Of a stretch of DNA of 39,896 nt, positions 18,744 to 31,950 are shown in pieces. Both the position numbers and the translations under genes were made by a program. Origin of the DNA: Bacillota bacterium (lineage in GTDB: Bacteria; Bacillota; Clostridia; Peptostreptococcales; Anaerovoracaceae); assembly GCA_029008005.1 (NCBI GenBank), contig JAQXIX010000046.1:1-39896 (forward strand), given 5' to 3'. Position 1 is the first letter of the stretch. Each line of letters begins with the position of its first letter. The notes beneath the pieces were generated by a model. It searched no databases and was not told the origin of the DNA. It saw only the letters and a program-made list of their open reading frames with translations.

Positions 18744-19400
18744 TTAATTTTCGTTATATGGCTTCAGATCTTCAGCCCAGATGAGCTTGCAGCCTGTTGC
18801 CGCCTGAACATCTTCTCTGGTGAAATCAGGATGAAGCTCTCTGACAACAATCCCTTCAGGTGACACGTCCATTACTGCCATTTCAGTAATTATACGTGTT
18901 ACGCACTTCTCTGCAGTAAGCGGAAGTGTACACTTTTCCATTATCTTATGGGCACCTTTCTGGGTGTGAAGCATTACTATTATTACTTCAGGGCAGCCTG
19001 CGCAAAGATCCATTGCTCCACCCATTCCGGCAACTTTCTTGCCCGGAACAATCCAGTTGGCCAGATCTCCGTTTTCGGCAACCTGCATTGCTCCCAGAAC
19101 AGTTGCTTTAACATGTCCTCCTCTTACCAGACCGAAGCTTTCTGCCGTATCGAAGTACTTGACTCTGTCAAGAGCCGTTACGTAGCTTCCGCCGGAGTTG
19201 ATAATATCAACATCGAGACTTTCTGCGTTTGCCATTTCATCGATTCCCGCGAATCCGTTTTCCGAATGACATGTTACCATGATATCTTCGGGAAGGTAAT
19301 CCGCAACTTGTGTAGGAAGGCCTATTCCCAGGTTGATGAAATCGCCATCTTCAAATTCTTTCGCGCATCTTTTCGCGATTCTTGCTTTTAAATCTGCCAT
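18744..19400 (-). CDS. atoA: acetoacetate/butyrate CoA-transferase subunit B
   Basis: 218 aa, a normal beta subunit of class I CoA transferases. The catalytic glutamate is Glu47 in VTCHSENGFAGI. In lysine fermentation the AtoDA pair moves CoA between butyryl-CoA (or acetate) and acetoacetate. Its start overlaps atoD by 13 nt and it is the last gene before the terminator. GGAGAAAAG precedes the ATG. Confidence 0.93.
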   Translation of the reverse strand: MADLKARIAKRCAKEFEDGDFINLGIGLPTQVADYLPEDIMVTCHSENGFAGIDEMANAESLDVDIINSGGSYVTALDRVKYFDTAESFGLVRGGHVKATVLGAMQVAENGDLANWIVPGKKVAGMGGAMDLCAGCPEVIIVMLHTQKGAHKIMEKCTLPLTAEKCVTRIITEMAVMDVSPEGIVVRELHPDFTREDVQAATGCKLIWAEDLKPYNEN

Positions 19401-20113
19401 TTCTTTTCTCCTTCCACAATAGTGTCAACCAGAACACCTGCAACCTGCCACATGTCAGGATCGACTTCGCCTACTTCAACAAGCTTCTCCGGAGCAATAA
19501 TCGTATGCTTAGCAGCGCCTGCCATTACGTAATTGAAGTTTTTCGTTGCTTTCGAGCAGTAGTAGTTTCCGAACTTATCGGCAACTGTAGGTCTGATAAA
19601 AGAATAATCTGCGTATAAAGCTCTCTCGAAGAGATACTTCTTTCCGTCTATTACCATTACCTCTTTCTTTCTGCCCAGCTCATCCGGTTCCTCCTCCATT
19701 GGCGTTCCGACTCCCACAGGAGTAAGAACGCCTCCCAGGCCGTATGCTGCCGCTCTGATTTTTTCCGCCAGAGTTCCCTGAGGTACCAGTGTATATTTCA
19801 GACTTCCGTCTGCGAACTGTTCATTAAGCCTCGGGTTAACTCCCAGGTGGGATGCGATAATATGATCAACCATATGGTGCTCGAGAAGCTTGCCGATTCC
19901 TCTCGGTGTCTTTGCTGCAAAATCTCCTGCCGGCTGGCCTTCTGCCAGTCCGCCGTCGTTGCCGATTACAGTGAGATGCTTAACACCCTTCTCAACGAGG
20001 GCATCCATGAGAATCTCCGGGGATCCTGTTGCCAGAAATCCGCCGACCATTATGGTCATGCCGTCTTCAACACCGGCAACCGCTTCCTGCGGTGTTAAAA
20101 TTTTGCTTTTCAT
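19388..20113 (-). CDS. atoD: acetoacetate/butyrate CoA-transferase subunit A
   Basis: 241 aa alpha subunit of the same enzyme. The N-terminal MTIMVGGFLATGSPEILMDAL and central GNDGGLAEGQPAG segments are family features, with the CoA-binding GGVLTPVGVGT loop near residue 130. It begins 4 nt after the kamE stop, so ribosomes probably re-initiate; the local AAGGAT is too close to the ATG to act alone. Confidence 0.93.
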   Translation of the reverse strand: MKSKILTPQEAVAGVEDGMTIMVGGFLATGSPEILMDALVEKGVKHLTVIGNDGGLAEGQPAGDFAAKTPRGIGKLLEHHMVDHIIASHLGVNPRLNEQFADGSLKYTLVPQGTLAEKIRAAAYGLGGVLTPVGVGTPMEEEPDELGRKKEVMVIDGKKYLFERALYADYSFIRPTVADKFGNYYCSKATKNFNYVMAGAAKHTIIAPEKLVEVGEVDPDMWQVAGVLVDTIVEGEKKWQI

Positions 20114-20117
20114 ATCC

Positions 20118-20885
20118 TTATACCATCTTTCTGTTTACTATTTCCGTAAGAACGAATGATGCTACGTCTTCAGCATATTTATGCTGACCGAAGCCTGCGT
20201 CGTATCCCAGCTCCTGAGCCAGTTCATGGGAAATTCTCGGTCCGCCGCATACGAGTATAACTTTATCTCTCATGCCCTCGGCTTCGAGAAGTTCAACCAT
20301 ATTAGTCAGGTTCTGAATATGTATGTCCTTCTGGGTTACTGTCTGAGATACTAGAATTGCGTCTGCCTTAAGTTCTTTGGCTTTTGCGATAAGCTCCTCG
20401 TTCGGAACCTGCGAACCCATGTTGTAAGCCTCAATGCCTTCGTATCTTTCGAGTCCGAAGTGTCCGTGGAAGCCCTTCATGTTCATTATTGCGTCAATTC
20501 CTACAGTATGTGCGTCTGTACCTGTTGAAGCGCCGACGATTACTACAGGTCTCTTGATGTTTTCTTTTATGTATTCAGCACATTCAAGTCTGTCCATTAC
20601 ATCAACGTCAACTTTGGCAACTTTGATTGTTGTATAGTCAACTGTGTGCTGGAGCTTGCCGTAAACTACGAAGAATGTGTATTCCTTTGTCATCTCTTTG
20701 GAATATACAACGTTCGGTTCGTCGAGGCCCATTTTCCTGGCGAGAATCTTAGCCGCTTCATTAGCCTCATCTCCATAAGGAACAGGAAGGGTGAACGCCA
20801 CCTCTGTCATACCGTCGTTAAGAGTGTCGCCGTAAGGCTTTACCTTTGTCAGATCAATCTGAGCTACTGCTGTTTTATCTGCCAT
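20118..20885 (-). CDS. kamE: D-lysine/beta-lysine 5,6-aminomutase beta subunit
   Basis: 255 aa adenosylcobalamin-binding subunit. The base-off B12 motif D-x-H-x-x-G is Asp124-Ala-His126-Thr-Val-Gly129, and Lys137 (NMKGFHG) sits 11 residues after the histidine, at the position of the PLP-binding lysine of the characterised clostridial enzyme. With KamD it moves the terminal amino group of beta-L-lysine to C5, giving 3,5-diaminohexanoate. Its ATG overlaps the kamD stop (TAATG), so the two are made in step. Confidence 0.96.
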   Translation of the reverse strand: MADKTAVAQIDLTKVKPYGDTLNDGMTEVAFTLPVPYGDEANEAAKILARKMGLDEPNVVYSKEMTKEYTFFVVYGKLQHTVDYTTIKVAKVDVDVMDRLECAEYIKENIKRPVVIVGASTGTDAHTVGIDAIMNMKGFHGHFGLERYEGIEAYNMGSQVPNEELIAKAKELKADAILVSQTVTQKDIHIQNLTNMVELLEAEGMRDKVILVCGGPRISHELAQELGYDAGFGQHKYAEDVASFVLTEIVNRKMV

Positions 20886-22441
20886 TATTCTGCACCTCCT
20901 AACATAAGCGGAATGAATGGGTTGAAGTACTCGTCATCCTTAACGCACACGCCGTTAAGGCCTTTTCCTCCATCTCTCGGTCTCTTGACTCCACCGAATT
21001 TACCCTGTTCTATTGTTGAGAACAGACCTTCTTCAACAATGTCCTCGAGAAGCTTATCGGCCTTTTCGAGTACACTCTGAGCTCTAGACTGGATGATTCC
21101 GTTTTCTTTGAAGTATACTTCCGATCCTATATCTCTCATGTTGTTAAAAATGTACTGTGCGTTTTCGATTGAGAGGTATCTGTCGTGCATATGCGGTGTA
21201 TGAATAGCCTCTGTCAGCATTCCGAGAAGCTGCAGTGACTGTCCGGACCATACAGCAATCATGTTAAAGAGAGCATCCTGAACGTTGCCCTTGAAAATGT
21301 TGCCTGTCATGTATTTAGTAGGCGGCATGTATTTCAGCGGGGCGTTAGGGAAGATTTCTCTCGCCATAATTGCCTGTGACAGTTCATAGAGGAATCCGTT
21401 TTCGATATCCGGATCCATTTCAAATGCATGTCCGAGTCCCATCTGCTCTTCCTTAACATTAGCCAGAACAGCGAACTGTTCATTTATGAGCTGTGATGCC
21501 AGAACGGTATGTGCACTTTCATATGCATCGTCTGTTGTCAGGTAATTGTCTTCTCCTGAATTGAAGATAATGTCACAGTATCCGATGATTACTCTCGAGA
21601 AGTACTGGTCAACCAGTGTTCTCTGCATATTGATGTCTCTGAAAAGAATTCCGTAAAGGGCATCATTGAGCATTACGTCAAGTCTTTCGATAGCACCCAT
21701 TGCTGCGATTTCCGGCATGCACATTCCCGAAGAATAGTTACAGAGTCTGATATATCTGCCTACCTCTTCTCCTACCTCATCAAGGGCTTTTCTCATGATT
21801 CTGAAGTTTTCCTGTGTAGCGTATGTTCCACCGAAGCCTTCTGTTGTAGGACCGTACGGAACGTAGTCCAGAAGCGACTGAGCTGTTGTTCTGATTACGG
21901 CGATAATATCCGCACCCTGTCTGGCAGCAGCCTGTGCCTGTACAACGTCCTCGTAGATATTTCCTGTTGCTACAATTACATAGAGGTACGGTCTCCTTCC
22001 CTCTCCGATTGTGGCCAGATACTCATTTCTCTTCTCTGTCTGCGCTCTGATAACTTTAAGTGCTTCGTGTACTTTAGGCATTATCTTCGCTTCTGCTTCT
22101 TCCTTGGAAGCCAGCGGAAGCTTAGTGATATCCAGCCTTCCTGCTGCCATTTCTTCAGCTATCTCCTGAGGCTCCTTGCCTGTCTGAATCATAGCGTTAC
22201 CTATCCAGTAAGCTACTCCTCTCGGAAGTCCGCCTGCGTCAAGAATCTGATCCACAACTACATTCGGCAGGGGAGTTTCCACCTCATCGATTCCGTCAAC
22301 ACCCAGAAGCCTGAGAACTGTTCTTTCTGTACTTACTGTAGTGTGTCTGTCGATGAATTCCTGCATACTTTCGGCAATCTTTCTGGCACTGCCGCGAGCA
22401 TGTTCGACCTTTTTAGGATCCAGGTTCAGTTTGCTTTTCAT
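20885..22441 (-). CDS. kamD: D-lysine/beta-lysine 5,6-aminomutase alpha subunit
   Basis: 518 aa, full length for the alpha subunit, which has the TIM-barrel active site where B12 and PLP chemistry meet. Recognisable stretches are PRGVAYWIGNAMIQTG, VIVATGNIYEDVVQAQAAARQGADIIAVIR and TTEGFGGTYATQENFRIMRKA. It lies 11 nt after kamC and overlaps kamE by 1 nt. Confidence 0.96.
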   Translation of the reverse strand: MKSKLNLDPKKVEHARGSARKIAESMQEFIDRHTTVSTERTVLRLLGVDGIDEVETPLPNVVVDQILDAGGLPRGVAYWIGNAMIQTGKEPQEIAEEMAAGRLDITKLPLASKEEAEAKIMPKVHEALKVIRAQTEKRNEYLATIGEGRRPYLYVIVATGNIYEDVVQAQAAARQGADIIAVIRTTAQSLLDYVPYGPTTEGFGGTYATQENFRIMRKALDEVGEEVGRYIRLCNYSSGMCMPEIAAMGAIERLDVMLNDALYGILFRDINMQRTLVDQYFSRVIIGYCDIIFNSGEDNYLTTDDAYESAHTVLASQLINEQFAVLANVKEEQMGLGHAFEMDPDIENGFLYELSQAIMAREIFPNAPLKYMPPTKYMTGNIFKGNVQDALFNMIAVWSGQSLQLLGMLTEAIHTPHMHDRYLSIENAQYIFNNMRDIGSEVYFKENGIIQSRAQSVLEKADKLLEDIVEEGLFSTIEQGKFGGVKRPRDGGKGLNGVCVKDDEYFNPFIPLMLGGAE

Positions 22442-22452
22442 CCTTTGTCTCC

Positions 22453-24087
22453 TTAGTTAATGTACTTCTTTGCGTTTTCGATTATTTCTCTGTCGATGCC
22501 CAGCATTTTCGCGATGTTCAGAGCATCTTTGGGAATTTCACTGTTGCTGTCCACTTTAGCGAGACGAAAATCCATGTACTTCCGGATTATTTCGATTCTC
22601 TCCTTCCTGTTAGCGTAGCGTATTTCCCTGTTAAGCATGTCGAAATCAACGTCCGCAAGACCTTTGACCTGCATGTTCACCACATCTTCATCCTCTGTTA
22701 CCCTTTCAAAATGAGTTGTAATCAGAGAAATATATTCCTTTGACTTCAGATAATCGACTATGCTTTTTGTAAGTGCCAGTCCCTCAACGGGGTTTGTTCC
22801 CGATGCTATTTCATCAATGAGAATCAGCGACCGGTCGCGAGCGTTATCCATTATCTCCTTAAGCTCCTCCATTTCACTTCCGAAACTGGAAAGACCTCTC
22901 TCTATGGACTGGCTGTCGCCAATTAGAATCTGCATGAATGACGAGAGTCCGATTCTGGCCGATTCGCACGGAACAAAGAATCCGTACTGGGCGAGGACGG
23001 CAACCATTCCCGCCAGCTTAAGGGAAACAGTCTTGCCTCCCATATTCGCCCCTGTTATACAGGTAACGCCATCTCTCAGACTTATACTGATCGGACAGTA
23101 CTCTCCGCCCTTTCTTTTTACTATTTCTTCCACCTGCAGATGTCTTCCGTTCTCAAACTCCACAATATGTTCGCTTACGATTTCCGGTTTCACGCAGTTA
23201 TTAGCCTTTGCAAACAGTGCTTTCGCCAGTGTAACATCCAGCGCTCCCACTATCCTGCAGTTTTCAAGCAAAAGCTCTCCACGTTCCGCTATCTCTTTCG
23301 AAAGCCTCTCTCTGACTTTCTCTTCCTCGTCTTCTGTCTCCGCCGCCACAATATCCATCTTCTTAATAAGTTCATTTACTTCATCTGTCGGAGCCAGACT
23401 GTAGGTTACTGACACGTAATCCTCATCCGACCTTCTCAGGTCGCTAATCTCTTCTATCATTTTTATACGTCGGTCATCGCTCTTTGACAAAGTGATGTCA
23501 AATTTCGGAGTCAGCACGATGCCGAATTCTTCTTTCAGTTCCTTTTTCCTGAGCTTCTGTTCTCTCCTTATTGCTGTTTCCAGCTCCTTTTTTTCCTTCC
23601 TGAGCCGGGCCAGTTTTTCTGAGAAGACATCATAGATATAAAAGGTATTCAGTCTCTCTCCGTCCGGATCCAGAATATCAAGGAGTTCTTCTGTATCTGC
23701 CGGGACAAAATCCTCCGGCGCATTGCATTCCACTGCAACGCTTCTGATTTTTCCCATAAGCAGCAGCAAAGTCTTAAGCTCGAAGATTTCTACTGTTGAA
23801 AGTATCGATTTGCCACTTCTCTCAATGGTGAAAGTATTGTCTTTTATCAGCATAAGACATTCTCTCAGAACATTTACTTCCTGCTTGTACTGTGACGCAA
23901 TCTCCATCATTCGTTCCGTTCTGGCAAATTCCTCTCTTAAATCCCCCTCCTGACCTGGGAAAAACGGCTTTTGCTCTTTAATCAGCTTTTTCCCGAAAGG
24001 TGTAATAATCTCCAGTGCCGAAACCACATATTCCAGCCCTGTTTCCTTTCTTGTCTTAATATTTGCCAATCTTCCTGCTACAGCCAT
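22453..24087 (-). CDS. kamC: lysine 5,6-aminomutase reactivase ATPase (MutS-like)
   Basis: 544 aa. The C-terminal half is a MutS-type ABC ATPase: Walker A GANMGGKT at 346-353, Walker B LILIDEIASGTNP from 421, and a late ITTHFE switch. The middle (about 150-190) is coiled coil, resembling the MutS lever/clamp region, but the mismatch-reading N-terminal domain is absent. Its fixed place next to kamD/kamE and naming in known lysine operons indicate an ATP-driven reactivation role for the B12 enzyme, not DNA repair. It starts 9 nt after kamB. Confidence 0.88.
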   Translation of the reverse strand: MAVAGRLANIKTRKETGLEYVVSALEIITPFGKKLIKEQKPFFPGQEGDLREEFARTERMMEIASQYKQEVNVLRECLMLIKDNTFTIERSGKSILSTVEIFELKTLLLLMGKIRSVAVECNAPEDFVPADTEELLDILDPDGERLNTFYIYDVFSEKLARLRKEKKELETAIRREQKLRKKELKEEFGIVLTPKFDITLSKSDDRRIKMIEEISDLRRSDEDYVSVTYSLAPTDEVNELIKKMDIVAAETEDEEEKVRERLSKEIAERGELLLENCRIVGALDVTLAKALFAKANNCVKPEIVSEHIVEFENGRHLQVEEIVKRKGGEYCPISISLRDGVTCITGANMGGKTVSLKLAGMVAVLAQYGFFVPCESARIGLSSFMQILIGDSQSIERGLSSFGSEMEELKEIMDNARDRSLILIDEIASGTNPVEGLALTKSIVDYLKSKEYISLITTHFERVTEDEDVVNMQVKGLADVDFDMLNREIRYANRKERIEIIRKYMDFRLAKVDSNSEIPKDALNIAKMLGIDREIIENAKKYIN

Positions 24088-24096
24088 TTCTCTCTC

Positions 24097-25113
24097 CTAA
24101 AGCATTACGTCAATTACAGGTATGTCCGGAACTGCATCCTCCATTGCTTTCAACAGTTCTTCGTGATCGAAGGAATATCCCGATGGGGCAACGGGATTAA
24201 CGGTTACCGCAGCCACTTCTATGTTCTCAAGCACTTTTACCTTCATTCCCCGTTTTCTCAATTTTCCCCAGAGAGTTTTATCTATAAAAATCTTTGTCGG
24301 ATCCTTGAGCACAAATATGATTTTCTTCAGTTTACCGGGATTAATATCCTCAACCACACTTTGTGTAAATGCTCCGGGAACATAAATGTGAGTTGTTCCT
24401 TCATTAATTTCACTATCCAGATACCTTCCGGCGCCAAGGCCTGTTGCTCTTTCCAGCTCATAACCTTCGCCATCTGCGATAATGATTATTCGATCACGAT
24501 TCTGCCGGTCTTCTATTATCTTTCTCTCCTGTCCATCTTCGAGAATCGGAAGGCGGTAGAGGGCAACGGTATGTGCCGTATCCTCCACAACCTTGTTCAT
24601 CTTTCTCGATAATACCGCTCCTGTGGACAGAATAATCGCATCTGATGTTCCCGGTGCCGCAATTGACTTCCTGTCTATTGCGCCGTCAATCAACACCAGA
24701 TCTGCCCCGAGACCAAGCATTTCTTCACACATCCTCATGTGCTGTGCGTTTATTACCGGTCCTGCAACCTGCACGTATCCCGACGAGACAACTCTGCAAA
24801 GCATAATCTGTCCCAGGGATGTGCTGTAATCCGTCATCCGGACTATTTCCAAACCGGCATCTGCCAGCTCATAGAGCTGTGTAGGCACCGATACAATAGT
24901 GCCCGTATCCAGAAATACTCGAGGTTTCTCTGTACCTGTCACGAGATCTGTAATCTCCCCATCTCTGCCTGTTGAAGTTACTCCCAGCGTCAGCCCTTCA
25001 TCCATTGCTTCCTCTATCAGGTAATTCAAGGCTGTCGTCTTGCCTGCATTCTTGGCCATTCCGACGATTGATATACGTTTGTATTTTTCAGCTAATTCCT
25101 CGAGCAGGTACAT
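24097..25113 (-). CDS. kamB: lysine 5,6-aminomutase reactivase subunit KamB
   Basis: 338 aa. The N-terminus carries a P-loop (SIVGMAKNAGKTTALNYL, Walker A about 18-26) like small GTPase or MobB-type domains, so it is itself probably a nucleotide-binding protein. Further features are LVLIDGAIDRKS and the C-terminal NPVAPSGYSFDHEELL. It sits between kamA and kamC, the conserved order in lysine-fermenting clostridia, where it is assigned with KamC to aminomutase reactivation. Biochemistry is less certain than for the other Kam proteins. Confidence 0.85.
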   Translation of the reverse strand: MYLLEELAEKYKRISIVGMAKNAGKTTALNYLIEEAMDEGLTLGVTSTGRDGEITDLVTGTEKPRVFLDTGTIVSVPTQLYELADAGLEIVRMTDYSTSLGQIMLCRVVSSGYVQVAGPVINAQHMRMCEEMLGLGADLVLIDGAIDRKSIAAPGTSDAIILSTGAVLSRKMNKVVEDTAHTVALYRLPILEDGQERKIIEDRQNRDRIIIIADGEGYELERATGLGAGRYLDSEINEGTTHIYVPGAFTQSVVEDINPGKLKKIIFVLKDPTKIFIDKTLWGKLRKRGMKVKVLENIEVAAVTVNPVAPSGYSFDHEELLKAMEDAVPDIPVIDVML

Positions 25114-25134: not shown

Positions 25135-26394
25135 TTACTTCTTGTTTCTTTCATGTCTCAGAAGGTGAGCCGGTTCCATGGACATTCTTTCGCCCTGAGC
25201 CAGTCCCGCAACACCTTCATAATGATATTCTTCAACCGGCTTACAGTTTTCGTAACTGCACTGAAGCGGCGGAAGCATTGTCGGTTCTGTATAAGTTGTA
25301 ATAACGCCCTCGTAATTTCTCAGTATTACCTTCTCAGGTGTCTGTGAAATTACATACTGCGGCATTACAGGTGTCTTGCCGCCACCTCCCGGTGCGTCAA
25401 CAACAAATGTCGGCACTGCATATCCGGATGTATGACCTCTAAGTCCCTCGATTATTTCAATACCCTTCGATACAGGTGTTCTGAAGTGTTCGATTCCAAG
25501 TGAAAGGTCACACTGATAAATGTAGTACGGACGAACTCTGTTCTTGCAGCAGTGGTGTACCAGATTTCTCATTACATGAACATCATCATTCACGCCTCTG
25601 AGAAGAACCGACTGGTTTCCGAGAGGTATTCCTGCATCTGCAAGTTTACGAACAGCTTCTGCTGCTTCCGGCGTCCACTCCTTCGGGTGGTTGAAGTGCG
25701 TATTCAGCCAAATCGGGTGATATTTCTTGAGCATGTCACAAAGTTCATCTGTGATTCTCTGCGGCATTACTACAGGAACTCTCGATCCTATTCTTACGAT
25801 TTCAACATGATCGATCTTTCTGAGTTCACTGATAATATATTCAAGAACATCTGTCTCTACAAGAAGTGCGTCTCCGCCTGAGAGAAGCACGTCTCTTACA
25901 ACAGGTGTTCTTCTGATGTAGTCAATGCATGCGTTTATGTCTTCCATGCTTCTGGCGCCATCAGTTTCTCCGGCCATTCTTCTTCTCGTACAGTGTCTGC
26001 AGTACATTGAGCACTGGTCAGTAATAAGGAAAAGTACTCTGTCCGGATATCTGTGTGTAAGTCCCGGTGCAGGTGAATCCTCATCTTCGTGAAGCGGATC
26101 CAGCATATCTGACTCCGCTCTGTGTGTTTCAGCCAGTGTCGGAACCGCTTGCATTCTTACAGGGCAGCTTGCATCATCAGGATCCATCAGTGATGCATAG
26201 TATGGAGTGATACCTACTCTGAAACCTGACATTACCTTAGTAATGTCTGCTTCTTCTTCAGGTGTAAGGTTAATAACCTGTTTTATTGCTTCTACTGAGT
26301 CAAGTCTGTTGGCAACCTGCCAATGCCAGTCATTCCACTGCTCGTCTGTTACATCCTTAAATAACGGGATGTCTTTCCAGTTCCTAATAGCCAT
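25135..26394 (-). CDS. kamA: L-lysine 2,3-aminomutase
   Basis: 419 aa radical-SAM, PLP-dependent enzyme that makes L-beta-lysine, the first step of the pathway. The [4Fe-4S] ligands are Cys128, Cys132 and Cys135 (CSMYCRHC). The PLP lysine is Lys340 in DAPGGGGKTPV. Length and both motifs match authentic KamA rather than the shorter EpmB paralogue, and its operon setting removes doubt. A strong GGAG lies before the ATG, and the gene is 33 nt after kdd. Confidence 0.97.
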   Translation of the reverse strand: MAIRNWKDIPLFKDVTDEQWNDWHWQVANRLDSVEAIKQVINLTPEEEADITKVMSGFRVGITPYYASLMDPDDASCPVRMQAVPTLAETHRAESDMLDPLHEDEDSPAPGLTHRYPDRVLFLITDQCSMYCRHCTRRRMAGETDGARSMEDINACIDYIRRTPVVRDVLLSGGDALLVETDVLEYIISELRKIDHVEIVRIGSRVPVVMPQRITDELCDMLKKYHPIWLNTHFNHPKEWTPEAAEAVRKLADAGIPLGNQSVLLRGVNDDVHVMRNLVHHCCKNRVRPYYIYQCDLSLGIEHFRTPVSKGIEIIEGLRGHTSGYAVPTFVVDAPGGGGKTPVMPQYVISQTPEKVILRNYEGVITTYTEPTMLPPLQCSYENCKPVEEYHYEGVAGLAQGERMSMEPAHLLRHERNKK

Positions 26395-26427: not shown

Positions 26428-27495
26428 CTATGCGTACATTTCCTCAAAGAGCTTCTTTATTCCTTCATGCTCTCTGAGAACCTGAAGTGTAATTTCTGCA
26501 TGACCCTTTGTATAGCCGTTTCCTACCATCATGTTTACGTCCTTGCCTACGCCTTCTGCTCCGAGAGCTGCCTTTGTGAAATCTGTAGCCATGGAGAAGA
26601 AGTATACGGTTCCGTCATCCTTACACGAAAGTATTGATGCCATTTCTGTGTTTGGAATGTTTACGCAGTTGATTACAACATCACAGAGCTTGCCGTCAGT
26701 GAGTTCCATAATCTTGTTGTACATTCCGACTGCATCTGTTGCATCCATGTGGAAATATTCATCAGCCAGATCGAGCTTTCTTGCTCTGTCTTCTGATTTC
26801 TGTGAACCTGCTGCACAGATAACTTTACCTGTAACGCCTGCTCTCTTCTTAGCTTCGTAGAGGCAGAGAAGACCTGACTTGCCGCCGCCGCCGATTACGA
26901 GGATTGTGTCTCCCGGCTTCGAAAGCTTAGCTGCCTGTGCAGGAGCTCCGGCTACGTCCAGTGCCGAAAGAGCCAGTCCCTCAGGCATATCATCAGGAAG
27001 CACTGCATAGATTCCGCTCTGGAAGAGAATTGCCTGTCCTGTAATGTCAACCTGGTCGATTCCCGGTCTCATTTCGTGAATCTCTTCGATTACCAGTGGA
27101 GTAAGTGAAAGTGATACGAGTGTAGCAAGCTTATCTCCAACCTTCAGATCTCCAACATATGCAGGTCCGATTTCCTTAACTGTTCCGATGAGCATTCCGC
27201 CTGAACCTGTCCAAGGATTCTTGTGCTTTCCTGCATTCTTAACGATTTCCATCATGGTCTTCTTTACTTTTTCCTGATCTTCAGGGCTATTGTCGATATC
27301 TGTAGGCTTCTTGCCGTCGCATGATCTTCTTACGATTTCTGTAAATGAAGCTGAGTCAATGTTCAGAGTCTGAACGTCGATGAGAACTTCATTGTCGTAA
27401 ATTTCCATTGTATTGTCGATTTTATCTGCAGGCTGCGGCAGTACTCCTTTTGGTTCAATGACTCTGTGTGTTCCGTAAGGGCATCCTTTTTTCAT
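26428..27495 (-). CDS. kdd: L-erythro-3,5-diaminohexanoate dehydrogenase
   Basis: 355 aa. It oxidatively deaminates 3,5-diaminohexanoate to 3-keto-5-aminohexanoate with NAD(P)+. The fold is medium-chain-dehydrogenase-like: an N-terminal GroES-type half (residues 1-~180) and a Rossmann half with the nucleotide loop IGGGGKSG at 201-208. The frame extends 10 codons further, but AGGAGGA (27504-27510) lies 8 nt before the ATG at 27495. It is the first gene of the lysine operon and is preceded by a sigma-54 promoter. The adjacent regulator contains a degenerate copy of this protein. Confidence 0.95.
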   Translation of the reverse strand: MKKGCPYGTHRVIEPKGVLPQPADKIDNTMEIYDNEVLIDVQTLNIDSASFTEIVRRSCDGKKPTDIDNSPEDQEKVKKTMMEIVKNAGKHKNPWTGSGGMLIGTVKEIGPAYVGDLKVGDKLATLVSLSLTPLVIEEIHEMRPGIDQVDITGQAILFQSGIYAVLPDDMPEGLALSALDVAGAPAQAAKLSKPGDTILVIGGGGKSGLLCLYEAKKRAGVTGKVICAAGSQKSEDRARKLDLADEYFHMDATDAVGMYNKIMELTDGKLCDVVINCVNIPNTEMASILSCKDDGTVYFFSMATDFTKAALGAEGVGKDVNMMVGNGYTKGHAEITLQVLREHEGIKKLFEEMYA

Positions 27496-27632: not shown

Positions 27633-27650
27633 CGAACCTTATTCGGTTCA
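27633..27650. promoter_or_regulatory. activator site 1 (palindrome YGAACC-N6-GGTTCR)
   Basis: CGAACCTTATTCGGTTCA. The centre is about 96 bp upstream of the predicted kdd start, a normal place for a sigma-54 enhancer site. It shares its arms and 6-nt spacer with two other sites flanking the regulator gene. Confidence 0.8.
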
Positions 27651-27661
27651 AAACAAAACTG

Positions 27662-27679
27662 TGAACCTAATATGGTTCA
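27662..27679. promoter_or_regulatory. activator site 2 (palindrome TGAACC-N6-GGTTCA)
   Basis: TGAACCTAATATGGTTCA, extended by one more pair to GTGAACC/GGTTCAC. It lies 29 bp from site 1 (centre to centre) and overlaps the stop codon of the sigma-54 regulator (27677-27679). As minus-strand RNA it would form a 7-bp hairpin followed by AGTTTTGTTTTG, so it may also help end the regulator transcript. Confidence 0.8.
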
Positions 27680-29746
27680 CAGTCCGTATTTATGTTTTTT
27701 TCTTACAAGCTGCGTTTGAGAAATACCTATAGCTTTTGCGGCCTTTCGGGTAGATCCGTGTTTCTCGCATGCATATCTTATTATGTTCTTTTCATAGGCT
27801 TCCATGGCTGTAACAAGATCCATTTCACAGCTTTCGCCTACATCCCTGGCAGGCATCGCTCTTCTTATTCTCGCCGTTTTGCCCTCCAGCTCTCTCATTA
27901 CATCGACTATCGTTATTCCATCATGTGCGCTGGCAATCATCAGCCTCTGAACAACATTTTCAAGTTCCCTGATGTTTCCCGGCCATCTTCTGCCCGACAG
28001 ATATTCTTTCGCATCATCGTCCATGTATTTACTTACGCCGAATTTCTCATTGTATTTTTCGATAAAGTTGTCTACGAGAGGCGGCACATCTTCAGGTCTC
28101 TCATTAAGAGCCGGAACATTTATCGGGAAAACATTAAGTCTGTAGTACAGATCCCGCCTGAACAAGTTCTTTTCCACCAGTTCTTCCAGATTCCTGTTTG
28201 TCGCCGAAATTATTCTGACATCTGTCTTCGTCGGTGTCGTACTTCCTATACGCAGAAACTCTCCTTCCTGTATCACTCGCAAAAGCTTGGCCTGTATATC
28301 GAAAGGAAGCTCTCCCACTTCATCGAGAAAAATAACGCCGCCGTCTGCCGCTTCAAAATACCCTTTCTTGCCTTTGCTGTCCGCTCCTGTGAAGGAACCC
28401 TTCTCATATCCGAAAAACTCCGATTCCATCAGGTTCGGAGAAATTGATGCACAGTTGATTTTAACGAAGGGCTGAAGTTTTCTCGAGGAGTTCTTCTGTA
28501 TTATATTGGCAACTTTTTCTTTACCTACACCTGTATCTCCTGTTATCAGCACATTACAATCGTATCTCGATACGCTCATTATTTCATCCAGAACGTTATG
28601 CATCTTGTCACTGACTGCAACAAAACCGTCTGCCGCAGATATATCATAATGATTGTAGTGGTCAAATATCTGTTTTTCCGTCTCCGATTTGTAGCCTTTG
28701 CGCTTAAGCTTGTCTCTGCTTATCAGAGCATCTTCAATGTACGGGGCCAGTTCTCTTACCAGGTTAAAGTCGAATTCGTCATACACGCCGAGATAACCCT
28801 CGCTGCACAGGATTCTCAAGTCCTTTGATATGGATTCCGTAACATACAGTGCGATATTGTAATTGCTTATAAAGTTGGCGAATACAACTGTTCCGCCGTC
28901 TTTAGCCCCGATTACGCTTACTGTTTCCGCTCCCGGAATATCGGCACAGTTAACAACCAGATCCACCTGCGGATAATCGCTGAAATACTTTAGACAGTCT
29001 ACCGGTCTGAGAAGATTCTGATATGCCGTAACGTCGAAGACTTTGTCCATCAGCTCTTTTACTTTGTCGCCTGAAAGCAGCAAATCCGTATTCCTGTCGA
29101 AAAGGCAGTAAATCTCCGCTTCAGGCCCTGCCATCATTCTTATGGTGTATCCGTAAAGCAGGTTCATAAGCATGTTGTTTCCCACAACAGCAAACTTCTC
29201 TTTTCCCACTGAGTTTTCGCCGACTCTGTACAGTGTTCCCGACTCGTTGAAAACATAGAGAAGCAGATTCGTCGGTAAGTCCGCCGGTTTCCTGACAACC
29301 TGTCCTTCCGAAAGCATTATGGCATATCCGTCAACCTCAATCTGAGGATAATATTTATCTATTGATTTTATGCTGTTTATGTGCAGCGGAATCGCCGAAA
29401 GAGATGTGTTGCAGATAACTTCATCTCCCACCTTCAGCCCTTTCTCATTTATGAAGTCCGGTGAGATTTCTTCTATTACGCCATACAGCAGTCCTCCTGT
29501 ATCTGTAACAGGATTGTGCAGCTTGCCTCTCTTGATAACGATGTCCAGTATTTTCTCTTTTATCCGGTCTTCATCATTGGCCGCTTCATGGCAAATCTGC
29601 TTAAATCCCGTTCCCTCTACATGTATTGTTCGAACGGCAACACGCATTTCTCCTTTTCTCAGTTCTCTGCCGTTGTCCAGCTTCCAGGCTGAAGCCGGAA
29701 AAACTTTCGGCGGTGATACAACCCTGTCAAGCCCGTATGAACGCAT
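27677..29746 (-). CDS. sigma-54 activator with Kdd-homologous sensor domain
   Basis: 689 aa. Residues 1 to about 350 align along their length with the adjacent enzyme Kdd: RGKLHNPVTDTGGLLYGVIEEI against AGKHKNPWTGSGGMLIGTVKEI, and VDLVVNCADIPGAETVSVIGAKDGGTV against CDVVINCVNIPNTEMASILSCKDDGTV (aligned segments split here by position only). The Kdd nucleotide loop IGGGGKSG is replaced by VGNNMLMN (about 187-195). Then come an AAA+ domain (Walker A GDTGVGKE 403-410, GSFTGA 450-455, Walker B VIFLDE 471-476, R-finger RRDLYYRLN) and a TyrR-like HTH (about 663-685). The frame is open 27 codons further to 29827, but AAGGAG (29754-29759) is 7 nt before the ATG at 29746, and that start aligns with Kdd. 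It probably activates the kdd operon and kal in response to a pathway intermediate. Confidence 0.93.
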   Translation of the reverse strand: MRSYGLDRVVSPPKVFPASAWKLDNGRELRKGEMRVAVRTIHVEGTGFKQICHEAANDEDRIKEKILDIVIKRGKLHNPVTDTGGLLYGVIEEISPDFINEKGLKVGDEVICNTSLSAIPLHINSIKSIDKYYPQIEVDGYAIMLSEGQVVRKPADLPTNLLLYVFNESGTLYRVGENSVGKEKFAVVGNNMLMNLLYGYTIRMMAGPEAEIYCLFDRNTDLLLSGDKVKELMDKVFDVTAYQNLLRPVDCLKYFSDYPQVDLVVNCADIPGAETVSVIGAKDGGTVVFANFISNYNIALYVTESISKDLRILCSEGYLGVYDEFDFNLVRELAPYIEDALISRDKLKRKGYKSETEKQIFDHYNHYDISAADGFVAVSDKMHNVLDEIMSVSRYDCNVLITGDTGVGKEKVANIIQKNSSRKLQPFVKINCASISPNLMESEFFGYEKGSFTGADSKGKKGYFEAADGGVIFLDEVGELPFDIQAKLLRVIQEGEFLRIGSTTPTKTDVRIISATNRNLEELVEKNLFRRDLYYRLNVFPINVPALNERPEDVPPLVDNFIEKYNEKFGVSKYMDDDAKEYLSGRRWPGNIRELENVVQRLMIASAHDGITIVDVMRELEGKTARIRRAMPARDVGESCEMDLVTAMEAYEKNIIRYACEKHGSTRKAAKAIGISQTQLVRKKHKYGL

Positions 29747-29771: not shown

Positions 29772-29789
29772 TGAACCGAATTCGGTTCG
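29772..29789. promoter_or_regulatory. activator site 3 (palindrome TGAACC-N6-GGTTCG)
   Basis: TGAACCGAATTCGGTTCG, with a perfect 16-bp core palindrome. It sits between the regulator start (29746) and the kal sigma-54 promoter; the centre is about 62 bp upstream of the predicted kal start. Lying in the regulator's own leader, it could also mediate autoregulation. Confidence 0.8.
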
Positions 29790-29816: not shown

Positions 29817-29834
29817 TTGGCACTCATTTTGCAA
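29817..29834 (+). promoter_or_regulatory. sigma-54 promoter of kal
   Basis: TTGGCAC-TCATT-TTGCAA: -24 at 29817-29823, -12 at 29829-29834, 10 nt between GG and GC. Transcription would start near 29843, about 50 nt before kal. It overlaps the upstream ATG (29827) of the extended regulator frame, further evidence that the regulator starts at 29746. Confidence 0.92.
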
Positions 29835-29892: not shown

Positions 29893-30282
29893 ATGGAAAA
29901 AATCACTTCAACTTTAAGAATGAGAATGTCAGCTAAAGATGCACATTACGGTGGAGAGCTTGTTGACGGAGCTCATATGGTTCACCTTTTCGGTGACGTT
30001 GCTACAGAACTTCTCATTAAGCTTGATGGCGACGAAGGTCTCTTCTGCGCATATGACAATGTGGAATTCCTGGCTCCTACATATGCGGGAGACTATATTG
30101 AAGCATACGGCGAAATCGATAAAATCGGAAACACTTCAAGACATATGAAATTCGAAGCAAGAAAGGTTATAGTATCGAGAAAAGATATTAACGCTTCCGC
30201 TGCCGACTTCCTGGAAGAGCCGATTGTTGTGGCAAGAGCTACCGGAACATGCGTTACACCTAAAGAAATGAAGAGAAAATAA
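29893..30282 (+). CDS. kal: 3-aminobutyryl-CoA ammonia-lyase
   Basis: 129 aa hot-dog fold protein. It removes ammonia from L-3-aminobutyryl-CoA to give crotonyl-CoA late in lysine fermentation. Family features are [34 protein letters not shown] at the N-terminus and [23 protein letters not shown] in the middle. AAGGAG lies upstream of the ATG. It is transcribed divergently from the regulator and kdd operon from its own sigma-54 promoter and followed by a terminator, so it forms a single-gene unit in the same regulon. Confidence 0.92.
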
Positions 30283-30417: not shown

Positions 30418-31122
30418 ATGAGACTGAACAAATACATCGCATCTGCCGGCATCTGTTCCAGGCGCAAGGCCGACGAGCTGATTGCCGCAGGTAAAGTTAA
30501 AATCAACGGAGCACTGATGACAACGCCCGGCTACATTGTAGAGGATGGCGATAAGGTCATGGTAAACGGTAAGCTGATCGAGAGCGAAGGGAAAAAAGTA
30601 TATATTCTCCTTAACAAGCCTCTGGGCTGCATCACATCAATGGACGACGACAAAGATCGTATTACTGTTGCCGACTATATCACAGATATCCCGGAGAGAA
30701 TTTTTCCCGTTGGAAGACTGGACTATAACACAACCGGTCTCCTTCTCATGACAAATGACGGAGATCTGGCCCAGAAGCTGGCTCATCCGGGACATAAAGT
30801 AACGAAAACTTATGTTGCAACCGTTGCCGGAGTCATCTCCGATTCCCGCATTAACAGACTCAGGAAAGGCGTAGATATCGGAGGATTCGTCACTTCACCG
30901 GCGAAGGTTAAAGTAATAAAACAAAACCCTCGTTCAACAGTCATCGAAATAACTATTCACGAGGGTAAAAATCGTCAGGTCAGAAAAATGTGTGCCGCTG
31001 TCGGCAACAAGGTTCAAAAACTTGAACGCGTTGCCATCGGTGACATCCGTCTGGGAAGACTCCTGAGCGGCCACTACCGTAAACTGACACGCGATGAAAT
31101 AGAATATCTCAAAAGTTTATAA
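30418..31122 (+). CDS. rluB: rRNA pseudouridine synthase, RsuA/RluB/E/F family
   Basis: 234 aa. Residues 1-55 are an S4 RNA-binding domain (MRLNKYIASAGICSRRKADELI) and the rest is the catalytic domain with Asp102 in VGRLDYNTTGLLLMTNDGDL. In Firmicutes such single-copy proteins usually modify 23S rRNA U2605 (RluB), hence the symbol, but RsuA-type specificity cannot be excluded. The frame extends 15 codons upstream, yet the S4 domain starts at the ATG at 30418, with AGGAGG 12 nt before it (rather long spacing). Its stop overlaps the convergent DUF4097 gene by 6 nt. Confidence 0.9.
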   Translation: MRLNKYIASAGICSRRKADELIAAGKVKINGALMTTPGYIVEDGDKVMVNGKLIESEGKKVYILLNKPLGCITSMDDDKDRITVADYITDIPERIFPVGRLDYNTTGLLLMTNDGDLAQKLAHPGHKVTKTYVATVAGVISDSRINRLRKGVDIGGFVTSPAKVKVIKQNPRSTVIEITIHEGKNRQVRKMCAAVGNKVQKLERVAIGDIRLGRLLSGHYRKLTRDEIEYLKSL

Positions 31123-31950
31123 CTCTCTCATTGCGCTATGTCCGAACAAAAGCTCGATATCACCATCTCCTGTGTTGATTTCAAGTGTCTTCGAACCGCT
31201 GCCGAAATTATAGTTTCCTCCTGCTTCGGATATGTCTTTCTCATTAACTTCGATATCACCTATTGCGGTCTTTGCATTAATGGTATAGGCACTTTCCTCA
31301 TCGTAAGATGCGAACACCACATCTCCCAGGTCAACCTTCACAACGGTTTTGTTTAAATCGCTTCCGACAATATCAATGTCTCCGTCACTGCTTGAAGCGT
31401 TAAACTCACCGGCAGATACGCCGATTGCCTCAATGTCCCCATATGCTGTCTTAACATCAATGTCCTTGATATTATCGCCGCATACAACAATTATCGCCGG
31501 CGTTTTGTCTCCTGTGCTGAAATCAAATGTTATTCCCGGTTTCTCGTTTTCATCTTTTATCTTCAATACCCCGTTATCTTTAGTCACTTCAGGCTTATCC
31601 AGGTTTTCCCCGTAGATCATGTACACATTTCCCGGTTCCGGTTTAGCATTATCAGAAATATATCCCCTTAATTCCCCCGGAATTTCACCGAGCATTAATG
31701 CATCCGAAAGGGCGTTCTCTCCTACCAGAATAACATCTCCGTTACTCGTATCTATTTCAATCGATTCGAATTCGCCGTACTCTTTCATGTCAGTTTCCAC
31801 ATTTCCAGGACTCCCCTTAATCCAGTCATGTTTCTCTGCTACTCTATCAATCCCCTGAATTCCTCCAATTGCGAAGCCGACAAAGGTAAGCATAATTCCT
31901 GCCGCGAATACCGCCGCGCATACTATTAAAAATACTGTTCTTTTTCTCAT
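31117..31950 (-). CDS. DUF4097-family membrane-anchored beta-repeat protein
   Basis: 277 aa. One N-terminal membrane helix (about 6-30) precedes an extracellular all-beta region built of repeated short motifs such as TSNGDVILVGE, TAYGDIEAIGV, SSDGDIDIVGS and TAIGDIEVNEK. These repeats, a beta-helix-like DUF4097/DUF4098 pattern, point to an envelope adhesin-like or sensing role; no enzyme motif is visible. It is the third gene of a PadR-DUF1700-DUF4097 operon, a combination often seen in Firmicutes, 5 nt after the DUF1700 gene. Confidence 0.88.
   Translation of the reverse strand: MRKRTVFLIVCAAVFAAGIMLTFVGFAIGGIQGIDRVAEKHDWIKGSPGNVETDMKEYGEFESIEIDTSNGDVILVGENALSDALMLGEIPGELRGYISDNAKPEPGNVYMIYGENLDKPEVTKDNGVLKIKDENEKPGITFDFSTGDKTPAIIVVCGDNIKDIDVKTAYGDIEAIGVSAGEFNASSSDGDIDIVGSDLNKTVVKVDLGDVVFASYDEESAYTINAKTAIGDIEVNEKDISEAGGNYNFGSGSKTLEINTGDGDIELLFGHSAMREL

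Follow-up and report, generated by a model that had tools for sequence, protein, structure and literature searches.

Sigma-54 control of kamA is already known from Bacillus thuringiensis, in which the PAS-type regulator KamR was described (PMC4428206). The evolution of enzymes into sensors of transcription regulators has precedents as well: an aminotransferase gave rise to the sensor of MocR/GabR (PMC6917764, PMC5320631) and a shikimate kinase to that of BzdR (PMC3602430). Among sigma-54 activators (EBPs), a survey that reconstructed 39 groups in Clostridiales describes clostridial EBPs with the hydrogenase-like domain Fe_hyd_lg_C (Nie 2019, PMC6615313). The sensor-domain list of that survey includes no dehydrogenase, and 'lysine', 'kam' and 'diaminohexanoate' each occur zero times in its main text. 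Here, we analysed a stretch of 39,896 nt (the window) from a Bacillota bacterium of the Anaerovoracaceae (GCA_029008005.1, contig JAQXIX010000046.1) in which an EBP with a sensor related to 3,5-diaminohexanoate dehydrogenase (Kdd) is encoded among lysine-fermentation genes. We think it likely that this protein is a one-component sigma-54 activator of these genes, whose altered Kdd domain recognises one of the pathway's diamino acids.

The activator and its gene neighbourhood

The features of the window are as follows (coordinates in the window, strand in brackets).
18744..19400 (-), CoA-transferase subunit B, profile match
19388..20113 (-), CoA-transferase subunit A, profile match
20118..20885 (-), kamE, lysine 5,6-aminomutase beta, profile match
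20885..22441 (-), kamD, lysine 5,6-aminomutase alpha, profile match
22453..24087 (-), kamC, reactivase ATPase, profile match
24097..25113 (-), kamB, 5,6-aminomutase reactivase subunit, profile match
25135..26394 (-), kamA, lysine 2,3-aminomutase, profile match
26428..27495 (-), kdd, 3,5-diaminohexanoate dehydrogenase, with the ATG at 27495 taken as its start codon
27555..27570 (-), sigma-54 promoter-like site TGGCACGCTAATTGCT ahead of kdd, exact pattern match
27634..27649 (no strand), palindrome GAACC-N6-GGTTC, candidate activator site on the kdd side, pattern match
27663..27678 (no strand), palindrome GAACC-N6-GGTTC, candidate activator site on the kdd side, overlapping the EBP stop codon and then T-rich
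27677..29746 (-), Kdd-AAA+-HTH sigma-54 activator, 689 aa (716 aa, to 29827, in the list of open reading frames)
27680..27826 (-), HTH_50 DNA-binding domain (PF18024, E 4.7e-12)
27872..28630 (-), AAA+ sigma-54 interaction domain and lid (PF00158, PF25601)
28382..28399 (-), GSFTGA loop, a variant of GAFTGA, by motif
28712..29746 (-), Kdd-derived sensor domain, residues 28-372 in the 716-aa numbering, by profile and structure comparison
29162..29185 (-), altered nucleotide loop VGNNMLMN (IGGGGKSG in Kdd), by alignment
29773..29788 (no strand), palindrome GAACCGAATTCGGTTC, candidate activator site on the kal side, pattern match
29818..29833 (+), sigma-54 promoter-like site TGGCACTCATTTTGCA ahead of the divergent kal, exact pattern match
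29893..30282 (+), kal, 3-aminobutyryl-CoA ammonia lyase (188.7 bits, cut-off 160)

The N-terminal domain of the EBP had been proposed to be a Kdd-derived sensor, and homology and fold now agree in confirming this. The domain scores 140.4 bits against the Kdd profile NF052381, under the curated cut-off of 200 bits, as compared with 245.4 bits, over the cut-off, for the neighbouring Kdd. The structure comparison with Kdd that had been suggested revealed the same fold across the whole domain, with a Rossmann half that is predicted to be retained and well folded; chance homology is ruled out by the profile, alignment and structure comparisons together. No PAS domain was found in this EBP by Pfam at E <= 0.001. 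The central part matches PF00158 with an E-value of 1.6e-67, exhibits the Walker motifs GDTGVGK and GGVIFLDE and retains the GAFTGA loop as GSFTGA, a variant that still activates according to Nie 2019 (PMC6615313). Together with the PF18024 HTH, the two exact -24/-12-like sites nearby and an RpoN encoded in the genome (E 3.2e-140), this suggests that the protein would activate sigma-54 transcription. It weighs against an exclusive role of this EBP that the genome encodes others: it holds 11 matches to this EBP as query, and the two others listed correspond to the AAA+ and HTH part only. Elsewhere in the window, a 277-aa ORF at 31117-31950 (-) has no NCBIfam match at E <= 0.001, and an Rfam search of the window gave zero matches.

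Promoters, palindromes and the GAFTGA loop

Exact -24/-12 promoters precede both kdd and the divergent kal, each of them near a GAACC-N6-GGTTC palindrome, an arrangement that is new. In the window, the exact pattern TGGCA-N6-TTGC occurs at these two sites alone; if one mismatch is allowed, however, the number of promoter-like sites does not exceed that of shuffled sequence (12 versus a mean of 9.9). At the scale of the 1.63-Mb genome, TGGCAY-N5-TTGCW occurs nine times, twice at this locus, and GAACC-N6-GGTTC three times, always at this locus, as compared with one occurrence of the same pattern read backwards. The next pathway gene, kce, is located on another contig (G000:C1:2677-3486), away from all three palindromes. 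The palindromes are candidate DNA sites of the Kdd-EBP, and the one at 27663, given its overlap with the stop codon and its T-rich 3' side, could be part of a terminator.

A scan of a wide genome collection yielded 580 confirmed stretches with relatives, of which the best 80 were compared (L003-L022 and L032-L037, largely repeat contigs among L039-L064, are outside these totals). These 80 loci, from organisms such as Emergencia timonensis, Hornefia butyriciproducens, Aminicella lysinilytica, Clostridium aminobutyricum and Sinanaerobacter, encode a full EBP in 78 cases, kdd in 72, kal in 72, one or the other in 79 and kamA in 63. The genome search for the fusion and its linkage to lysine genes that the earlier note had proposed was thus positive in relatives. 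A promoter is present in 57 and a palindrome in 40 of 70 kdd-side gaps among these best 80 loci, and in 52 and 34, respectively, of 70 kal-side gaps. Single-base shuffles of the kdd-side gaps produced a promoter in 0.17% and a palindrome in 0.014% of cases. The density in control regions (1.55 promoters and 1.25 palindromes per kb) exceeds that in the remainder of these loci (0.033 and 0.0026 per kb) about 47-fold and 480-fold, and on the kal side promoter and palindrome lie 45 or 46 nt apart in each of the 27 gaps with both matches. Genome counts, shuffles and densities therefore rule out that the two elements occur by chance. Linkage and conserved cis-elements together support, by comparative genomics, the proposal that the EBP controls the lysine genes. 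Two tandem copies of kdd were observed in 18 of the best 80 loci (for instance L077 12241-14535 and L069 12383-14671, with about 69-70% and 81-84% identity to the window Kdd), and in L162 (7735-9306) a KamC-like ATPase of 29% identity is encoded between the Kdd-EBP and kdd.

In some relatives, the GAFTGA loop and the promoters are missing together. In 78 of the best 80 loci (L093 and L114 were dropped), G[AS]FTGA is kept in 64, of which 63 have a sigma-54 promoter match and the last, L094, has a site with one mismatch; the exact palindrome is absent in 17 of these 64. GAFTGA has been lost in the 14 others (L068, L080, L081, L083, L087, L095, L099, L100, L104, L106, L107, L110, L113 and L115), none of which has a promoter match at kdd or kal, whereas nine keep the palindrome; the end of Walker B is altered in 13 of the 14. 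Fisher's test gives p 1.5e-14 if kinship is ignored. On the best tree the association corresponds to four changes, one of them forced by strongly supported branches, and an independent-pairs test had too few pairs to reach significance. Loss of RpoN as the general cause is rejected, as RpoN was found in 47 of 49 genomes searched, including 12 of the 14 with GAFTGA lost; the genomes of L100 and L104, of unstated completeness, yielded no RpoN match. The 14 relatives, exemplified by A. lysinilytica (L099), have apparently been converted, judging from their sequences, to sigma-54-independent regulators; most simply, they retained the sensor and the DNA site as their output moved away from sigma-54. 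They represent a natural experiment, in which sensor, HTH and often palindrome stay and both GAFTGA and sigma-54 promoters are missing. In L113 and L115, kal, kdd and the kam genes are all divergent from the GAFTGA-less EBP.

In the mechanism that we favour, the C-terminal HTH would bind GAACC-N6-GGTTC near the promoters of kal and of kdd-kamABCDE-CoA-transferase, presumably one operon. The N-terminal altered Kdd would keep the fold and a third of the invariant positions of the enzyme without its NADP loop, and would bind a diamino acid of the pathway, either 3,5-diaminohexanoate or beta-lysine, less likely lysine. Ligand binding might then free the AAA+ ring for ATP hydrolysis, and its GSFTGA loop would remodel the sigma-54 polymerase. 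The cell would thus probably gauge a pathway molecule with an eroded copy of the very enzyme that uses it up.

The altered sensor, its possible ligand and its origin

We aligned 97 EBP domains with 49 Kdds (row L114 dropped, near-identical rows retained, numbering of the window Kdd) and called a position Kdd-invariant if it is the same in at least 98% of Kdds (n=84). The loss of the NAD(P) loop, claimed from the change of IGGGGKSG to VGNNMLMN, proved general: Gly215, Lys216 and Gly218 are kept in only 1, 4 and 4 of the 97 EBPs. The replacement loop GNN/GNS...N recurs across lysine-linked EBPs, as would be expected if the site had been remodelled and had not simply decayed. The four EBPs that retain both Lys216 and Gly218 (L028, L029, L123 and L124) are those nearest to Kdd on the tree, and this order resembles a gradual passage from a loop of Kdd type to GNN...N. 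A substrate pocket 'kept or reshaped', as had also been proposed, finds partial support, with 28 of the 84 invariant positions kept in at least 90% of EBPs and 56 not, so that the pocket may differ much from that of Kdd. Glu46, Lys100, Pro104, Thr106, Pro143, Asp282 and Glu294 are kept in all 97 EBPs, Asn38 and Glu324 in 96, Arg21 in 94 and Ser138 in 93. Glu324, which corresponds to Glu310 of PDB 7dl3, the residue mutated in 7dl0 and 7dl1, may have a functional role.

These residues bear on two other readings. The sensor could read NADPH/NADP or redox state, with an altered cofactor binding kept and a vestigial substrate side: the Rossmann half is conserved, 89 of 97 EBPs still have Gly212 and four EBPs retain part of the loop. 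We nevertheless find this improbable in view of the near-complete loss of the three loop residues, the recurrence of the new loop and the presence of Glu324, Glu294, Asp282, Lys100 and Thr106 in at least 96 of 97 EBPs. Continued enzyme activity of the domain, as a dehydrogenase that doubles as a regulator, would fit its conservation at full length, but seems highly implausible: Lys216 and Gly218 are lost in 93 of 97 EBPs, the Kdd residues His20, Thr135 and His342 are changed in 97, 97 and 92 of them, and the neighbouring gene already encodes a Kdd over the enzyme cut-off.

More distant Kdd-EBPs, 38-54% identical to that of the window, adjoin other gene clusters. Genes for CoA-transferase, thiolase and class III aminotransferase are found beside that of L023 (in L024 the aminotransferase alone was recognised) and, with kamA in addition, beside those of L030 and L031. 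The Kdd-EBPs of L028, L029 and L161 adjoin a divergent Kdd, Kce and a TRAP transporter, with Kal also in L028 and L161 and a HemL-like aminotransferase in L028, and that of L026 adjoins a transporter of the Na+/H+-antiporter family, which has a promoter-like site to itself. The neighbours in L025 and L027 showed no shared theme. Ahead of these other promoters, inspection by eye revealed a GAACC-type palindrome in L024 and one with a single mismatch in L026; none was recognised in L028-L031.

The genomes of L028-L031, G044 (100% complete) and G055 (98%), carry two tandem Kdd-EBPs, 47-54% identical, beside the kamA cluster (L030 2562-12312, L031 2258-11891), which could represent a lysine route via beta-lysyl-CoA to 4-aminobutyryl-CoA. 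A search of both for KamD (lysine 5,6-aminomutase) gave no match, so that the kamA-linked EBPs there cannot read 3,5-diaminohexanoate made by KamDE. Beta-lysine, the product of KamA according to PMC3149608, is an intermediate common to this route and that of the window, which places it on a par with 3,5-diaminohexanoate as ligand of the window EBP. The earlier prediction of 3,5-diaminohexanoate hence stays possible, but these two near-complete genomes mean that it is not singled out. That the ligand lies upstream of the Kdd substrate, as beta-lysine or lysine, is a narrower form of the favoured explanation, compatible with it, and a serious possibility to which we give slightly less than even weight. 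Against it, the first gene after the promoter in the window lineage is kdd, whose product has 3,5-diaminohexanoate as substrate, and the ligand may have changed in the paralogues.

Gal80 offers a model for another alternative, in which the sensor has no small-molecule ligand and forms a mixed dimer with Kdd, reading enzyme level or occupancy. The sensor has indeed the fold of the enzyme encoded next door, in company with kdd in 72 of the best 80 of 580 loci. We regard such pairing as unlikely, because no kdd could be recognised in the clusters adjoining the relatives in L023, L024, L030 and L031 and because the EBP domains have long been separate from Kdd.

This separation is apparent from a tree built with 38 EBP domains plus 49 Kdds (a quick search, with some long branches), in which the groups are split by a single branch with SH-aLRT 100. 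The fusion was therefore not made from the kdd of the window genome itself, and a recent duplication of the neighbouring kdd is ruled out. The earlier view of the sensor as a local copy of that Kdd is not supported: EBP domains form one old group outside all sampled Kdds, and relatives adjoin other clusters. According to these sequences, the fusion arose long ago and, within the sample, once. Nearly full-length matches to the window EBP, of 60-76% identity, are present in 24 of 36 other genomes of the genus. Among 291 genomes sampled from the class there were 25 matches, six with the fusion (called from an open frame of >600 aa) and 19 with stand-alone Kdd only. For a broader proposal we see the balance as even, namely that Kdd-derived domains are an undescribed class of small-molecule sensors, spread by duplication over several clusters for amino acids and beta-amino acids, in which the sensor travels with its DNA site as a portable module and the output has been switched to sigma-54-independent promoters in some lineages. 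If true, this class would cover lysine fermentation, the kamA-CoA-transferase-thiolase-aminotransferase and divergent Kdd-Kce-TRAP clusters and the Na+/H+-antiporter-family transporter.

Comparison with other regulators

In the class sample, 15 of the 19 Kdd-only genomes encode an EBP just upstream of kdd (L125, L127-L131, L133, L135-L137 and L139-L143), and no second Kdd-type match was found in the 19; unrelated regulators thus occupy the same place. These unfused EBPs resemble that of the window in their position and in the kind of sigma-54 promoter, which is found ahead of kdd in 14 of the 15 loci, so that lysine fermentation may often be under sigma-54 control in this class. They differ in their domains and DNA sites: among the ten of 15 scanned with Pfam, clipped at the locus edge, HTH_8 is present in all and PAS_4 in five (once below the Pfam cut-off), the five without visible PAS_4 being the clipped ones, and GAACC-N6-GGTTC occurs in none of the 15 loci.

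TyrR shares with the Kdd-EBPs an HTH of the HTH_50 type and boxes that are palindromes with a 6-bp centre, and its lack of GAFTGA recalls the 14 apparently converted relatives. It senses through ACT/PAS domains, whereas in the window EBP GSFTGA is intact and sigma-54 promoters are present at its locus. In comparison with Kdd itself (PDB 7dl0, 7dl1, 7dl3 and 7dl7), the sensor has no NADP loop, is fused to AAA+ and HTH domains and falls below the NF052381 cut-off.

In the literature that we searched, mostly main texts of open papers, so that a prior mention is possible, we found neither a Kdd-type sensor on an EBP nor a Kdd-domain regulator of lysine fermentation. The earlier remark that a metabolic enzyme is unusual as a sensor holds in that no dehydrogenase-type EBP sensor appeared there, but is too broad in view of Fe_hyd_lg_C EBPs, MocR/GabR and BzdR. 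MocR/GabR, with a GntR-type DNA-binding domain, and BzdR, with another, share the turning of an enzyme into a sensor, but have no AAA+ sigma-54 module and did not start from dehydrogenases; Fe_hyd_lg_C EBPs carry an enzyme-like domain in the regulatory region, although of hydrogenase type. KamR is likewise a sigma-54 activator encoded beside kamA, which it activates from a -24/-12 promoter, with a PAS sensor and a different gene cluster. For lysine-to-butyrate fermentation in many Clostridia there is now a candidate regulator, together with a candidate site on the DNA and ligands that can be tested. Against a background in which enzyme-to-sensor evolution and sigma-54 control of kamA are both known, what looks new is a sigma-54 activator built from an enzyme of the very pathway that it controls.
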